A stretch of DNA of 64,000 bases, from assembly GCA_913064945.1 (NCBI GenBank), contig CAJYAN010000010.1, forward strand, positions 62,001 through 126,000, written 5' to 3'. This document shows positions 31,710-61,772 of the stretch, piece after piece. Positions within the stretch are counted from its first letter, which is position 1. The number at the start of each line of letters is the position of its first letter. The DNA comes from an uncultured Gammaproteobacteria bacterium. Its GTDB lineage: Bacteria; Pseudomonadota; Gammaproteobacteria; UBA6429; Thiohalophilaceae. The notes under the pieces were generated by a model. That model was not told the origin of the DNA. It ran no database searches and saw only the letters and a program-made list of their open reading frames with translations. The position numbers and the translations under genes were made by a program.

Positions 31710-32132
31710 ATGCCCTATATCAATCTACGCCTTGGTGGCTCTATAACGACTGAGCAGCGCCAGAAATTGTTTGCCGAAACCACTCTGCTGATGAATCGCG
31801 TCATGCGAAAAAGAAAGCAAGTAACAGTTGTGCATATTCAGCAAGCGGAGGCACAGCAGTGGGCAGTAAATGGTATTGCGTTATCGAACGCCGAACCCAT
31901 GGCGGCCTATGTGGATATAAAGGTCACCGCTGGAACCAATACGACAGAGGAAAAAGCCGCAATGTTGAGTGAAACCATGAAAATGCTTTGCGATATTGTT
32001 GGTCTTATGCAGGAGGCCTGTTACATCGTTATTGATGAAATACCCGCCGACGCCTGGGGATACAATGGGGTATCACAGGCCACCAGAGCGGCGCTAAAAA
32101 AATCCGCCGTGGCAGTGACGGCGGCGGATTAA
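31710..32132 (+). CDS. Tautomerase-superfamily protein
   Basis: A 140-residue protein starting MPYINLRLGGSITTEQRQKL; after removal of Met the N-terminal Pro would be the catalytic base of the 4-oxalocrotonate tautomerase superfamily. It is about twice the size of a single 4-OT subunit, and the second half (AAYVDIKVTAGTNTTEEKAAML..) repeats the beta-alpha unit, as in MIF/CHMI-like members. AAGGAGAT lies at ideal spacing before the ATG at 31710. It is probably controlled by the upstream MarR through the palindrome at 31661. Substrate unknown. Confidence 0.82.
   Translation: MPYINLRLGGSITTEQRQKLFAETTLLMNRVMRKRKQVTVVHIQQAEAQQWAVNGIALSNAEPMAAYVDIKVTAGTNTTEEKAAMLSETMKMLCDIVGLMQEACYIVIDEIPADAWGYNGVSQATRAALKKSAVAVTAAD
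32096..32130 (-). terminator. Minus-strand intrinsic terminator inside the end of the tautomerase gene
   Basis: AATCCGCCG (32101-32109) and CGGCGGATT (32122-32130) form a perfect stem; seven A residues at 32096-32102 give a T-run when read on the minus strand. It would stop minus-strand transcripts that run on from the MFS gene at 32628-33848. Confidence 0.45.
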
Positions 32133-32248
32133 AATGCAGCTGAGAATCATTTTAAGGGATAAAATGTTTTGTTGTGTAGGGAAACAGTGGTAGATATGAA
32201 AACTGATTTTAATAATCAGTAATACATATCGGTCGGAGGAAACCAAAA

Positions 32249-56278: not shown

Positions 56279-56397
56279 CTGTAATTAGGTCGGTTAGCAA
56301 GTATCGACTTGAGGGTGCTTGGGTTAGAATCATGATTAATATCATAATCGCTCCGCCGGTCACAGACCAGCGACTTAACCTAAATATCAGTCACGCT

Positions 56398-59124
56398 ATG
56401 TCCACAAAAAAAGCCCCCTTCATTCTCGTCGACGGTTCATCGTATTTATTCCGCGCCTATCATGCCATGCCCAATTTAAGTAACAGCAAGGGTGAGGCTA
56501 CCGGCGCTATCTATGGCGTGATCAATATGCTGCGCCGACTACTGGGTGAATACAAGCCGGAACAGATTGCGGTGGTCTTCGATACCAAAGGCAAGACCTT
56601 TCGCCATGACATGTATAAGGAGTATAAGGCCAACCGCCCGCCTATGCCCGATGACCTGGCCGAACAGATCCAGCCCATACATGAGATTATCCGCGCTATG
56701 GGCCTGCCGTTGATCGCCGTGCCCGGTGTCGAGGCCGATGACGTCATCGGCACGCTGGCGAGGCAGGCCGAGGCGGCAGGTATCGAAACAATTATCTCTA
56801 CTGGCGATAAGGACATGGCGCAGTTGGTCGACGCGCACGTGCATCTGATCAACACCATGAATGACAGCTACATGGACCGTGATGGCGTCATCGAAAAATT
56901 TGGCATCCCGCCGGAACGCATTATCGATTACCTCGCGCTGATCGGCGATACGTCAGACAATGTCCCCGGTGTGCCCAAAGTCGGTCCGAAGACCGCGGTC
57001 AAATGGCTGGCAGAATATGATTCGTTGCAAAACATTATGCAGCGCGCCGATGAATTCAAGGGTAAGGTCGGTGAGTATCTGCGTGACACACTGGAACAGC
57101 TACCCCTGTCACGCGACCTGGTGACCATCAAGTGCGATGTCGCATTAGCGGAAACGCCGCAAAATCTGAATCGTAATACACCGGACCAGGACAGACTGCG
57201 CGAACTCTTCAGTCGTTATGAATTCAATACCTGGTTAAAACAGCTGGGTGGTGGAAATCATGATAGTACTGATGACGGTAACAGCGTTGTCGATGATAGT
57301 CGCGATGAAATAGTTGAAATAAAGTATGACACTATCTTATCTGAAAAAGACCTGTCCGCCTGGCTGAAACGTTTAGCGACGGCAGAGTTATTTGCTTTTG
57401 ATACCGAAACGACGAGCTTAGATTACATGCAGGCCGAGATTGTCGGTGTATCGTTTTCCGACACACAGGGTCAGGCGGCCTATATACCATTGGCGCACGA
57501 CTACCCAGGTGCACCGGTGCAACTGGACCGGGATAAGGTATTGCAGCAGTTAAAACCCTTGTTAGAAGATGCCAGCAAAAAGAAGGTCGGACAGAATCTG
57601 AAATACGATATGAATGTCCTGGCGAATTACGATATCGCCTTAAAAGGTATCGAGCATGACACCATGCTGGAATCGTATGTCTTAAATAGCACCTCATCTC
57701 GCCACGACATGGATACCTTGGCGTTAAAGCATCTAAACGTGCAGACCATTCACTTTGAAGACGTCGCCGGAAAAGGTGTCAAGCAACTGACTTTTAATGA
57801 CGTCGACATCGAACAGGCATCGCCCTATGCGGCGGAAGATGCCGATATTACACTACGCCTGCATAAAGTCCTGTGGCCACAGCTGGAAAAAGCAGCGTCA
57901 TTAAAGAATGTCTATAACGATCTGGAAGTGCCACTGGTGTCAGTGCTGTCATCTATCGAACGCAATGGTGTATTGATCAATCCAGAATTATTGGCGATTC
58001 AAAGCAGGGAAATGTCGAAACGTATTCTGGAGCTGGAACAACAGGCGCATGAACTGGCCGGAGAAGTCTTTAATCTTGGCTCACCCAAACAGTTGCAACA
58101 GATTCTGTTTGAAAAACAGAATCTGCCGGTGATTAGCAAAACCCCCAAGGGGCAGCCTTCGACCGCTGAGTCGGTACTACAGGAACTGGCCGAAGAATAT
58201 GAGCTGCCAAAGACGATTCTTGAATATCGTGGTCTGAGTAAACTGAAGTCAACGTATACTGATAAATTACCGGAAATGATCGCAAGACAAACTGGCCGGG
58301 TACATACCTCGTATCACCAGGCGGTGGCGGCAACAGGGCGTTTATCTTCATCGGATCCCAACTTACAGAACATCCCTATTCGAAACGAAGAGGGTCGGCG
58401 AATCCGCAAAGCATTTATCGCGCCGAAGGGCTATAAATTGCTGGCAGCGGATTATTCGCAGGTCGAGCTACGCATCATGGCGCATCTTTCCGGTGATGAA
58501 AGTTTATTGCGCGCCTTTAGCGAAGGTGCCGATATTCATAGTGCAACCGCCGCCGAGGTGTTCGGTGTCAGTCTCGATGCAGTCAGCAAGGATCAACGGC
58601 GTTCCGCCAAGGCCATCAACTTTGGTTTGATCTATGGTATGTCGGCCTTCGGACTGGCTAAACAGCTGGATGTGGGACGAGCAGAGGCACAAACGTATAT
58701 CGACCTCTATTTCGCTCGTTATCCCGGTGTCAAAAAATTTATGGATAATATTCGTGATAGCGCGCGTGACAAAGGCTATGTCGAGACCGTGTTTGGTCGC
58801 CGCCTGTATTTGCCCGATATCAACGCTCGCAACGGTCAGCGTCGTCAATACGCCGAACGTACGGCGATTAATGCACCGATGCAGGGTACGGCGGCCGATA
58901 TTATCAAGCGAGCCATGATCGATATTCATCAGGAATTACAAACCGGTAAATACGATGCCCGTATGATTATGCAGGTTCATGATGAACTGGTGTTTGAAGT
59001 CGCCGAGGCGCAAGTGGAAAAAACCAGCAACATGATCCAGCAGAAAATGAGTCAGGCGGCTGATCTGAAAGTGCCACTCGTAGTGGATGTCGGTATTGGC
59101 GACAACTGGGAAGAGGCACACTAA
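56398..59124 (+). CDS. polA: DNA polymerase I
   Basis: A 908-residue polymerase from the ATG at 56398 (MSTKKAPFILVDGSSYLFRA); the frame is open 22 codons upstream but homologues begin here. The 5'-3' nuclease domain (about 1-290), an intact proofreading domain (FAFDTETTSLDYMQ with the catalytic Asp and Glu) and the polymerase domain with DYSQVELRIMAHLSGD, RRSAKAINFGLIYGMS and VHDELVFEV are all present. It fills gaps in repair and removes Okazaki primers. Confidence 0.97.
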   Translation: MSTKKAPFILVDGSSYLFRAYHAMPNLSNSKGEATGAIYGVINMLRRLLGEYKPEQIAVVFDTKGKTFRHDMYKEYKANRPPMPDDLAEQIQPIHEIIRAMGLPLIAVPGVEADDVIGTLARQAEAAGIETIISTGDKDMAQLVDAHVHLINTMNDSYMDRDGVIEKFGIPPERIIDYLALIGDTSDNVPGVPKVGPKTAVKWLAEYDSLQNIMQRADEFKGKVGEYLRDTLEQLPLSRDLVTIKCDVALAETPQNLNRNTPDQDRLRELFSRYEFNTWLKQLGGGNHDSTDDGNSVVDDSRDEIVEIKYDTILSEKDLSAWLKRLATAELFAFDTETTSLDYMQAEIVGVSFSDTQGQAAYIPLAHDYPGAPVQLDRDKVLQQLKPLLEDASKKKVGQNLKYDMNVLANYDIALKGIEHDTMLESYVLNSTSSRHDMDTLALKHLNVQTIHFEDVAGKGVKQLTFNDVDIEQASPYAAEDADITLRLHKVLWPQLEKAASLKNVYNDLEVPLVSVLSSIERNGVLINPELLAIQSREMSKRILELEQQAHELAGEVFNLGSPKQLQQILFEKQNLPVISKTPKGQPSTAESVLQELAEEYELPKTILEYRGLSKLKSTYTDKLPEMIARQTGRVHTSYHQAVAATGRLSSSDPNLQNIPIRNEEGRRIRKAFIAPKGYKLLAADYSQVELRIMAHLSGDESLLRAFSEGADIHSATAAEVFGVSLDAVSKDQRRSAKAINFGLIYGMSAFGLAKQLDVGRAEAQTYIDLYFARYPGVKKFMDNIRDSARDKGYVETVFGRRLYLPDINARNGQRRQYAERTAINAPMQGTAADIIKRAMIDIHQELQTGKYDARMIMQVHDELVFEVAEAQVEKTSNMIQQKMSQAADLKVPLVVDVGIGDNWEEAH

Positions 59125-59207
59125 GCTATCAATGTATTGTGGACACGGCCCACCATTCAAAATCGGTTGAAGACGGTTATGCTGGGCATTGCCCACCCTG
59201 CCTCGTA

Positions 59208-59291
59208 GTAGTCATTGCGATGGAACTGATGCAATCTGGTTGAAATATGTCAGTCAAGATTGCTACGTCGACGAATGTCTCTACGCAATAA
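59208..59291. repeat. Degenerate palindromic intergenic repeat
   Basis: GTCATTGCGA at the left and the complementary CGCAATA at the right enclose GCAATCT (59231-59237) and AGATTGC (59257-59263), a perfect inner repeat. The form resembles a dispersed bacterial repeat whose ends read CATTGCGA, here decayed. A smaller hairpin GGGCA/TGCCC lies just upstream (59184-59194). Confidence 0.45.
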
Positions 59292-59296
59292 TAAAT

Positions 59297-59330
59297 TTTA
59301 CACATTTGGGTTGATGTGATTTATATCACC
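59297..59330 (+). promoter_or_regulatory. Promoter region with CRP/FNR-type palindrome
   Basis: TGTGA-N6-TCACC (59315-59330) is one base from the CRP consensus; the core GTGAT-N4-ATCAC is a perfect palindrome. TTTACA at 59297-59302 and TTTATA at 59320-59325 (17-base spacing) could be the -35 and a poor -10, so the palindrome would cover the -10. MAPEG gene starts 45 bases downstream. Confidence 0.45.
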
Positions 59331-59374
59331 CAGCGGGCATTGTGCAGTAACATAACTAAAAAAAGGAATTTAAC

Positions 59375-59797
59375 ATGTCACAAACATGGATCCTCTATCC
59401 CCTCTTCGCCATGGCGCTGTTAACGTTGCTTGTCTCCGTGCGAATGCTGCGTATGCGTGTCCGCGCTGTGCGTGAAGGCTCGTTACGTCTTAGTTACTTT
59501 CGTACGAATCAGGGAGCGGAGGCACCGATGCCCCTGACTCAAACCACACAGCACTTCGATAACCTGTTTGAGATGCCAGTACTGTTTTATGTAATTACTA
59601 TAATCATTTATGTAACCCACAGCGCAACGCCACTATTACTTGTGCTTGCATGGGCCTATGTCGGCTTACGTCTAGGTCATGCCTATGTGCATATGACTTA
59701 TAATAATGTTTTACATCGCCTGAACGTTTTTCTGGCGAGTACGCTGGTGATGTTTGCCATGTGGTTTATCTGGGTTGGGGAAATGGTTGTTTCATAA
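59375..59797 (+). CDS. MAPEG-family membrane protein
   Basis: A 140-residue four-helix membrane protein. LYPLFAMALLTLLVSVRMLRMR, an FDNLFEMPVLFYV motif with the glutathione-family Glu, and GLRLGHAYVHMTYNNVLHRL are typical of MAPEG (eicosanoid/glutathione metabolism) proteins, whose bacterial roles are mostly unknown; some are glutathione transferases. AAAAAAGGAA precedes the ATG. It follows polA on the same strand after 250 bases that carry a repeat and a CRP/FNR-like site. Confidence 0.88.
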   Translation: MSQTWILYPLFAMALLTLLVSVRMLRMRVRAVREGSLRLSYFRTNQGAEAPMPLTQTTQHFDNLFEMPVLFYVITIIIYVTHSATPLLLVLAWAYVGLRLGHAYVHMTYNNVLHRLNVFLASTLVMFAMWFIWVGEMVVS

Positions 59798-60130
59798 AAT
59801 AAAGACTATTGGGGAACTGGAGTAGAAGAAATACTTGCGAAGTCCCACACGGTTGATCTTATGTTCCACGTCTGCGTTCACCTTACCTGCATCTTCAAAT
59901 GTTCTTTAACCCGTGTTTATTCCGGGATCGTCTGCTGTGACTCCCGGACGAAATAGAAATTCCCCTGTTTTCTAGACGACGGTGGCAGTATAAGTGGCGT
60001 CGAGCCGGTGGGTGTTGTGGGCTTTGAGAATAGCGGCGTACATAAGCTGTGGCCACGCCGGAAGGTAATAATGGTGAGCAAAATTTTTGAATCTGGCTGA
60101 ACTTTTACAAACCCGGGGAGTCTCAATTTT
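59798..60130. other. Gene-free stretch upstream of the candidate small RNA
   Basis: Apart from a possible hairpin (CCGGGA with TCCCGG, about 59923-59948) I see no gene in this stretch. Frames that cross it on the minus strand run into gpsA in another frame and lack coding character. TTTACA near 60106 could be a -35 for the small RNA, but the -10 is poor. Confidence 0.35.
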
Positions 60131-60250
60131 AGTGCTAATTGCACCTCCCGCTCCTACCTCCCTGCGGGAGTTTACCCACTTGGTCTCCCCAAGCTGAGTG
60201 GTTGATATTAGCCCGGTGCGCTCTCCCCCTGATAGCACCGGGCTTTTTTT
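60131..60250 (+). ncRNA. Candidate small RNA: three hairpins with C-rich loops and intrinsic terminator
   Basis: Hairpin 1: CTCCCGC (60145-60151) with GCGGGAG (60164-60170), loop TCCTACCTCCCT. Hairpin 2: CCACTTGG-type stem, 60176-60201, loop containing TCTCC. Hairpin 3: GCCCGGTGC (60211-60219) with GCACCGGGC (60235-60243), loop containing CTCTCCCCC, followed by seven T. The loops offer CUCC/UCCCC stretches able to pair with ribosome-binding sites. The T-run shows the + strand is the terminated one, facing gpsA. The 5' end is not defined. Confidence 0.45.
60211..60250 (+). terminator. Intrinsic terminator of the candidate small RNA
   Basis: A nine-base-pair GC-rich stem (GCCCGGTGC/GCACCGGGC) directly followed by TTTTTTT (60244-60250). 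It is oriented for + strand transcripts; nothing else on that strand nearby needs it except the distant MAPEG gene. Confidence 0.8.
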
Positions 60251-61262
60251 ATGCCTGCTCGGGTTTGATGTCTCTACCGAGGAGGGCATCGACCGCATCC
60301 CTGGGGTCCTGGGCCTCATAGAGTACACGATAGACCTGCTCAATGATGGGCATGTCGACCCCTTTTTGTCTGGCCAGGGTATGCACCTCGTGGGCAGTGA
60401 TGACGCCTTCCACCACCTGGCCAATATCCTTTATGGCCTGTTCTTTACTATTACCCTTGCCCAGCGCCAGTCCCAGACGCCGGTTTCGCGACTGGTCATC
60501 GGTACAGGTCAGGACCAGGTCGCCCAGACCTGCCAGTCCCATAAAAGTCTCACGCTCTCCACCCATGGCAACACCCAGACGCATGACCTCGGCCAGTCCA
60601 CGGGTGATGAGGGCAGCGCGGGTATTGGCGCCAAATCCCAGGCCATCGGCGATGCCTGCGGCGATGGCCAGCACGTTTTTTACCGCGCCACCGATCTCGA
60701 CGCCGGTTACATCATCACTGGTATAGGCGCGGAAGCGATCGCCGTGCAGCATCGCCGCCATCTCAGTGGCAAAATCCAGGTTTGCTGAGGCCACAGTGAC
60801 GGCCCCGGGCAGGCCGCTGGCCACTTCTCTGGCAAAGGTCGGACCGGAGATGACGGCGAGCGGGATCAGGCCATCGAGTTCTTCATGGGCCACCTGATGT
60901 AGCAGTTTGCAGGTGCCGTGCTCGAAACCCTTGGTGGCCCAGGCAAGGCGGTGCTCGGCATTAATATGTGGCTTGATATTTTGCAGGGTCTGGCGGAAGG
61001 CGTGCGAGGGTACGACAGCCAGAATATCGTGTACCTGGTGAATAATTTCATCGAGATTGACCGAGACCTGTAGCAGTTCCGGAAAGTCGATGCCCGGTAG
61101 ATAGCGCGCGTTACAGCGCGTATCGATCATGGTCTCGGCGTGCTCCTGATGATGTGCCCACAGGTGAACGGGATAGCCATTGCGTGTCAGGAGAATGGCC
61201 AGCGCGGTACCCCAGGAGCCAGCCCCAAGGACAGCAACGGGGTGTGTACTGAGTTCGGCCAT
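60249..61262 (-). CDS. gpsA: Glycerol-3-phosphate dehydrogenase [NAD(P)+]
   Basis: A 337-residue cytosolic enzyme that reduces dihydroxyacetone phosphate to sn-glycerol-3-phosphate for phospholipids. The NAD-binding VLGAGSWGTALAILLTRNG, the ATKGFE motif, SGPTFAREVASGLPGAVTVAS, the catalytic Lys in GAVKNVLAIAAGI and the GLAGLGDLVLTCTDDQSRNRR signature are all present. It follows secB by nine bases, the typical pairing. Confidence 0.97.
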   Translation of the reverse strand: MAELSTHPVAVLGAGSWGTALAILLTRNGYPVHLWAHHQEHAETMIDTRCNARYLPGIDFPELLQVSVNLDEIIHQVHDILAVVPSHAFRQTLQNIKPHINAEHRLAWATKGFEHGTCKLLHQVAHEELDGLIPLAVISGPTFAREVASGLPGAVTVASANLDFATEMAAMLHGDRFRAYTSDDVTGVEIGGAVKNVLAIAAGIADGLGFGANTRAALITRGLAEVMRLGVAMGGERETFMGLAGLGDLVLTCTDDQSRNRRLGLALGKGNSKEQAIKDIGQVVEGVITAHEVHTLARQKGVDMPIIEQVYRVLYEAQDPRDAVDALLGRDIKPEQA

Positions 61263-61271
61263 AAAGTGGTG

Positions 61272-61772
61272 CTAGTGAACCGGGTCGGCGGCAGGTTCTC
61301 CCGCTTCGGCCTGAGCCTTTTCCTGTTGCTCCAGATGTTGACCATAGAGGACATCGAAGTTAACCGGTGCCAGTAATAACGGTTGAAAACCACTACGAGT
61401 GACCAGGTCCGAAATCGCCTCACGGGCATAGGGAAACAGAATGTTTGGGCAGTAGCTACCAATCATGTGCGACAGGTCCTGTGGACCAAAACCGCTGATG
61501 ACAAAAATACCGGCCTGTTGGACTTCGACAAGGAAGGCCGTCTTTTCATTGTTGGTTGTGGTGACCGTTAGTGACAACACGACCTCGTAGGTATCTTCAC
61601 CAATGGAGCGTCCCTGTGAATTCAGGTCGAGATTGACCTGCGGCTGCCATTCATCACTAAAGATGGCGGGGGCATGTGGCGCCTCGAATGAAATGTCCTT
61701 GGTGTAGATCTTGTGGATGGTAAATTGTGGCTGGCCCTGTTCGGTTGGCGTTGCCTGTTCGTTGTCGCTCAT
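61272..61772 (-). CDS. secB: Protein-export chaperone SecB
   Basis: A 166-residue chaperone that holds preproteins unfolded and hands them to SecA. FTIHKIYTKDISFEAPHAPAIF, QAGIFVISGF and CPNILFPYAREAISDLVTRSGFQPLLLAPVNFDVLY are hallmark segments. The acidic, Ala-rich tail (KAQAEAGEPAADPVH) is variable. It lies between trxC and gpsA on the same strand. Confidence 0.96.
   Translation of the reverse strand: MSDNEQATPTEQGQPQFTIHKIYTKDISFEAPHAPAIFSDEWQPQVNLDLNSQGRSIGEDTYEVVLSLTVTTTNNEKTAFLVEVQQAGIFVISGFGPQDLSHMIGSYCPNILFPYAREAISDLVTRSGFQPLLLAPVNFDVLYGQHLEQQEKAQAEAGEPAADPVH

Follow-up and report, generated by a model that had tools for sequence, protein, structure and literature searches.

A very probable three-hairpin small RNA downstream of polA in a gammaproteobacterium has a predicted sigma-E promoter and resembles sX13 and ErsA

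Positions 60131-60250 on the + strand of the window, the whole 64,000-nucleotide stretch of gammaproteobacterial DNA analysed here, very probably hold a genuine gene for a small regulatory RNA. Taking the evidence as a whole, we consider it highly likely that the product is a trans-acting sRNA with three hairpins and C-rich loops, which has its own sigma-E promoter and blocks ribosome-binding sites with its loops. This goes beyond the preliminary description of the same DNA in three respects: a sigma-E box, a further copy of the RNA elsewhere in this genome, and links to the sRNAs sX13, ErsA and anti-hemB. The analysis adds a shared promoter box and, for the copies whose neighbours were examined, places the RNA mostly at the polA/engB locus. 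One sigma-E-driven RNA family may join sRNAs that have been named and studied apart, a question that is now directly testable.

The minimum free energy of the + strand transcript is -52.4 kcal/mol, compared with -30.3 +/- 3.2 kcal/mol in 200 dinucleotide shuffles, none of which was as low (z -7.0). The three hairpins with CUCC-type loops that had been described from the letters alone, the last of them a + strand terminator, lie where they had been placed, and SL3 is followed directly by seven T. The 5′ end is set from the position of the predicted promoter. A simple pattern scan of 59000-61500 gave no excess of terminators (2 found, 2.6 expected); its hits were SL2 and a site at 59732, and SL3 was missed because its loop probably exceeds the length limit of the scan. 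The same kind of scan over this region found no sigma-70 promoter. We take the upstream ORF to be polA, judging from its sequence.

Table 1 Features of the RNA locus in the window.
Feature	Coordinates	Strand	Details and evidence
polA, usual upstream neighbour of this RNA family	56332..59124	+	ORF; polA neighbours in relatives
MAPEG-family gene, between polA and the RNA	59375..59797	+	Pfam PF01124, 62.6 bits
Predicted sigma-E (RpoE-type) promoter	60099..60125	+	-35 GAACTT 60099-60104, 15-nt spacer, -10 GTCTCA 60120-60125
sRNA gene, predicted ~120 nt transcript	60131..60250	+	Fold z -7.0, covariance-model scores, covariation
Small 5′ hairpin	60132..60144	+	Fold; none of its pairs in the covariance models
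SL1, loop UCCUACCUCCCU at 60152-60163 with CCUCC	60145..60170	+	Fold; two-sided changes in 6/6 modelled pairs
SL2, loop CUCCCCAA at 60185-60192	60172..60205	+	Fold; two-sided changes in 6/6 modelled pairs
SL3, intrinsic terminator hairpin (60210-60244), C-rich loop 60220-60234 with CUCCCCC, T-run 60244-60250	60210..60250	+	Fold; two-sided changes in 7/7 modelled pairs
gpsA, convergent	60249..61262	-	Pfam PF01210/PF07479; synteny

A plain DNA search of 58 genomes returned the genome's own copy and no match in the 57 others, which indicates poor conservation of the primary sequence. Downstream of polA, part of the relatives nevertheless have RNAs built on the same three-hairpin plan. We built a covariance model from 9 copies (R1) and a second from 50 copies (R2), the latter from the same 40 genomes of the window's family (of which Thiohalophilus thiocyanatoxydans is a member) and including no ErsA or sX13 copies; E-values of these models are rough, following a short calibration. 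The window copy, a training member of both, scores 68.4 bits with R1 and 67.6 bits with R2. R1 found the RNA in 36 of the 40 family genomes (E <= 0.01), and R2, in a count that is not independent of its training set, in 39 of 40 (E <= 0.001), two of these genomes reaching no better than 4e-4 and 7e-4. Across 276 sampled Gammaproteobacteria genomes, R2 matched 134 (E <= 1e-4); the window's family contributes three of the 276, all matched, leaving 131 of 273 outside it. These counts suggest that roughly every second genome sampled from the class has an RNA of this kind. In 80 named loci chosen by polA alone, some of which repeat family genomes (L124 is G001 and L115 is G028), R2 gave 27 matches below 1e-4, spread over 24 loci.

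The preliminary description had proposed that compensatory stem changes with conserved loops in relatives would support its reading of the stretch as a candidate sRNA, and this is what the alignments contain. In 107 copies, class members included, 95.9% of the cells are paired and 19 of 19 modelled pairs show two-sided changes; the covariation score is 0.677, against 0.201 +/- 0.009 in shuffled and at most 0.098 in slid alignments. The first large alignment (71 distinct rows, weak matches included) gave 94.6% standard pairs, again 19 of 19 pairs changing on both sides, and a score of 0.616 against 0.214 +/- 0.010 shuffled and at most 0.136 slid. Both alignments lean towards the model, its strand and its structure because they were fitted to them. 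A MAFFT alignment of 19 copies misaligned the terminator arm, and this alignment was kept out of the counts. C runs (CUCC, UCCC, CCCC or CCUC) are kept in loop 1 of 100, loop 2 of 89 and loop 3 of 96 of the 107 copies, and CCUCC, the core of the 16S anti-Shine-Dalgarno sequence, occurs within SL1 in 76 of 107. Fold, covariance-model matches and covariation together support the candidate sRNA reading.

A good fold is likewise predicted for the - strand of the same stretch (z -4.8), with GGA or GGGGA in its loops, where GGA motifs had been noted earlier. The functional RNA could on this basis lie on the - strand and act as a CsrA/RsmA decoy, a reading that we regard as extremely unlikely. In the alignment, which was fitted to the + strand model, G-U cells outnumber A-C cells by 114 to 12 on the + strand, and this excess favours that strand. 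The T-run, which had been taken before to favour the + strand, and the promoter box point the same way, and all 27 R2 matches below 1e-4 in the 80 polA loci lie on the polA strand, downstream of polA. R2 also gave four weaker matches, up to 0.1, and two of these lie on the opposite strand, L173 (7e-4) being one. A functional RNA on the + strand is thus favoured by the G-U/A-C counts, the T-run and the promoter box, and we rejected the CsrA-binding decoy, whose GGA loops occur on the - strand only.

The predicted promoter has a box that we take to match the RpoE consensus. In its strict form the box occurs twice in the whole window on both strands together, and one of the two is the site upstream of the RNA. 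The strict box is present upstream of 27 of 51 family copies, 14 of 27 named copies and 15 of 27 class copies, for which mononucleotide shuffles gave expectations of 0.14, 0.08 and 0.06, respectively. Its background rate is 0.006 per equal-sized region, as measured over the polA and gpsA loci and the whole window with the true sites included. Neighbours and promoters were counted for 96 of 107 matches, in 76 loci, with the 11 weakest left out. A box of a wider pattern precedes 64 of these 96 copies, 56 times with a 15-nt spacer, and 58 of the 64 boxes lie 34-48 nt before the model start; as controls, the reverse strand of these upstream regions held 6 boxes and the 125 nt downstream held 4. 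In the window's genome, rpoE forms an operon with rseA and rseB (rpoE-rseA-rseB) and is itself preceded by a GAACTA-N16-GTCGTA box; an hfq gene is present too. As judged from these sequence features, the RNA is probably switched on by the envelope-stress factor sigma-E. That the box is unused, and the RNA made under a housekeeping or other regulator, would agree with the 32 of 96 copies that have no box upstream and with three sX13 loci (L233-L235) that have none either. We hold this to be unlikely in view of the near-fixed spacing and position of the box in 64 of 96 copies, and since ErsA is under known sigma-22 control and an ErsA locus (L230) has GAACTT-N16-GTCATA. A passage of PMC7565897 describes ErsA as strictly sigma-22 dependent.

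The stretch might instead be merely a strong, possibly bidirectional terminator between the convergent MAPEG and gpsA genes, in which case any RNA from it would be the tail of the MAPEG transcript. SL3 is a terminator whose T-run overlaps the stop codon of gpsA (60249-60251), and no sigma-70 promoter was found. A plain terminator is, however, very unlikely to account for the locus: SL1 and SL2 covary as SL3 does, the loops keep their C runs, the distance to the promoter box is almost constant, and the RNA keeps its form whether it is beside polA, engB, trmL or gpsA. The MAPEG gene ends 334 nt upstream, at 59797, which corrects the earlier statement that no + strand gene ends nearby. It is the nearest upstream gene for the window copy only, and in none of the other 95 copies examined.

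The preliminary description had pointed to the position downstream of polA as one that holds Spot 42 in enteric bacteria. This location proved meaningful, as the RNA family usually lies between polA and engB. Among the 96 copies, 57 have polA upstream and a convergent engB downstream; engB only was found for 26, polA only for 9 (the window copy among them) and neither for 4, where absence means absence within the flanks taken (mostly 1.5 kb). In L220, which is among these four, the copy does lie between engB and polA, on the other strand. Both covariance models started from polA-linked copies; of the 50 loci to which the RNA model, rather than polA, had led (the window included), 46 have polA or engB arranged as usual. 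Here engB and trmL are our assignments from their sequences, and the Pfam matches are MMR_HSR1 GTPase and SpoU methylase. In the window, gpsA occupies the place that engB usually has in most relatives.

We found the second copy of the RNA in the window's genome at G000:C10:22240-22353 on the - strand (L092:2241-2354), 18 nt from a convergent engB and 100 nt after trmL. It has no sigma-E box, and a direct repeat, TTGACAATTCTTAACA, lies 54 nt upstream of it. A direct repeat like TTCACAAATGTTCACA stands 52-61 nt upstream of 16 of 107 copies, with 0.14 expected from shuffles; this set consists of the 96 copies and 11 family copies, and differs from the 107 rows of the covariation alignment. The second copy in the window's genome belongs to the 16. 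Only one of the 16 also has a sigma-E box, and 24 of the 107 have neither element. Judging from its form, the repeat would be an OmpR/PhoB-type site. In the 22 loci with at least two listed copies, the first copy has a sigma-E box in 17 and the last copy in none; L112 has a third, weak copy with a sigma-E box that is outside the 22-locus list, and in L236 three of four copies have the box. The genes polA and engB lie apart in the window's genome, with the window copy on the polA side. The simplest history is that the RNA doubled between polA and engB and that these genes were later separated in the window's genome.

We then compared the RNA with curated families. The Rfam search proposed earlier found no family in the window at gathering score, and 20 loci of relatives were likewise below every Rfam threshold shown. 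At a lax threshold the window RNA scored 33.1 bits with ar14, 27.8 with anti-hemB, 22.5 with the betaproteobacterial toxic sRNA, 20.3 with sX13 and 16.2 with ErsA. As all scores are below threshold, the window RNA is by that measure a member of no curated family. The earlier statement that it is not Spot 42 agrees with this. Spot 42 (RF00021), which adjoins engB/yihA in E. coli, shares the position downstream of polA; its gathering score is 80 bits and it had no match in the window, nor at E <= 1e-4 anywhere in the window's genome and the other 275 class genomes; the control from E. coli did match.

In its body the window RNA resembles sX13 of Xanthomonadaceae (RF02232; gathering score 50 bits). 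Both have three stem-loops with C-rich loops, and sX13, of ~115 nt, likewise lies downstream of polA on the same strand; in the window the MAPEG gene stands in between. R2 scored 21.8, 18.3 and 17.0 bits at three sX13 loci. These are the loci L233-L235, which differ from the window copy in the missing sigma-E box. The sX13 model itself matched 8 of the 276 class genomes, 3 of them over the cut-off. In promoter and locus the RNA resembles Pseudomonas ErsA (RF01719, Pseudomon-1; gathering score 50 bits), which has a sigma-E-type promoter, as predicted for the window RNA, and occupies the polA-engB interval, the usual place of the RNA family. ErsA lies between polA and engB and consists of two stem-loops with an unstructured domain between them, according to passages of PMC8575079. 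The window copy keeps the polA side of such a locus without engB, and the second copy faces engB. At one locus (L177), an R2 match of 29.5 bits lies inside an RF01719 match of 73.6 bits, and R2 scored 22.2 bits at the ErsA locus L230. The plan differs in that ErsA shows no SL2 loop in the R2 alignment, whereas the window RNA has SL2 as a covarying third hairpin; the match between R2 and ErsA rests on SL1 and SL3 because ErsA lacks SL2. The ErsA model matched 3 of 276 class genomes, 1 over the cut-off.

The anti-hemB model (RF02837, described from Burkholderia; gathering score 49.5) has in common with the window RNA an SL1 whose loop is CCUCCCUG, together with a terminator hairpin rich in GC. 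The window's family relatives reach up to 36.6 bits with it among the 20 loci. It matched 114 of 276 class genomes at E <= 1e-4, 15 over the cut-off. Among these 15, of which 14 were compared with R2 by place (by eye), 11 coincide with an R2 match and 3 have none. In the 15 anti-hemB loci that were fetched, polA is upstream in 9 and a wider-pattern sigma-E-type box is present in 10. The top-scoring locus (L243) differs, having neither polA nor engB within 1.5 kb and no sigma-E box; anti-hemB proper may be a member of the RNA family that has moved. Two further families were compared. The alphaproteobacterial ar14 (RF02344), the best lax match, has three C-rich hairpins and is likened by fold and score, below its gathering score of 58.8; the Betaproteobacteria toxic sRNA (RF02278), below its threshold of 50, shares a CUCC loop and terminator. 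RF02278 is related to S17 of Bordetella in the account given in part of PMC11722255.

Taken together, ErsA, sX13, anti-hemB and the new copies overlap in place, in form and, for ErsA, in promoter. The widespread family of the window RNA appears to include several separately named sRNAs, and common descent of these families and the new copies is likely, with the reservation that short C-rich hairpins can converge. In openly licensed literature, we found no title or abstract opening that joins ErsA, sX13 and anti-hemB or that describes a class-wide polA-engB sRNA family. PMC12153292, which deals with a different sigma factor, was left aside.

We propose that the RNA, as the polA-side copy of a family usually found in the polA/engB interval, works as follows. 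Under envelope stress, RseA would release sigma-E, which would transcribe the sRNA from the predicted box. The exposed loops (CCUCC, CUCCCC and CUCCCCC) would then pair with the G-rich Shine-Dalgarno regions of mRNAs and lower translation of these targets. Going by the sigma-E link, the likeliest guess for the targets is mRNAs of envelope or outer-membrane proteins. C-rich loops fit many ribosome-binding sites, so the loops alone would give little specificity. In sX13, as reported in part of PMC3771888, C-rich loops repress mRNAs with G-rich sites, loops and sites are both needed, and the RNA acts without Hfq; ErsA acts with Hfq in the account of a passage of PMC8575079. The structured RNA might act mainly by another route: it might titrate Hfq or a different protein, or base-pair within coding sequences, as ErsA does with anr. 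The loops are much alike across the class, as expected of a protein site, and for ErsA, which activates anr, the predicted pairing lies inside the anr coding region (PMC8575079, same passage). We find such a route rather doubtful, since sX13, the tested structural analogue, uses its C-rich loops on G-rich sites near starts (PMC3771888, in part), and keep pairing with ribosome-binding sites as the preferred reading.

A broader scenario, which in our judgement is evenly balanced between right and wrong, would place an ancient sigma-E-controlled, anti-Shine-Dalgarno-like sRNA between polA and engB at an early stage of gammaproteobacterial evolution. Its descendants would be ErsA, sX13 and those polA/engB-linked RNAs that the anti-hemB model finds. 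The gene would have doubled in several lineages, and the engB-side copy would have exchanged the sigma-E promoter for an OmpR-type direct-repeat site, so that a single set of C-rich loops would receive two stress inputs. The window's genome would have broken the locus, leaving one copy of each kind at two places. If true, the tandem copies split between two promoter types would represent a clean regulatory division after sRNA gene duplication.

Some further matches and motifs were seen. In one relative genome (L048/L086), a simple scan of L048 detected a row of five C-rich RNAs, each ending in a terminator, downstream of polA; four of them are also model matches (E < 0.001), and L236 likewise has four model matches. 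The models also gave a weak match on the - strand of the window at 32037-32141 (13.1 bits), probably by chance, and R2 a weak match at G000:C1:192875-192951 (21.3 bits). Upstream of the MAPEG gene, the sequence TTGATGTGATTTATATCACC at 59310-59340 resembles what we take to be a Crp/Fnr-type site.
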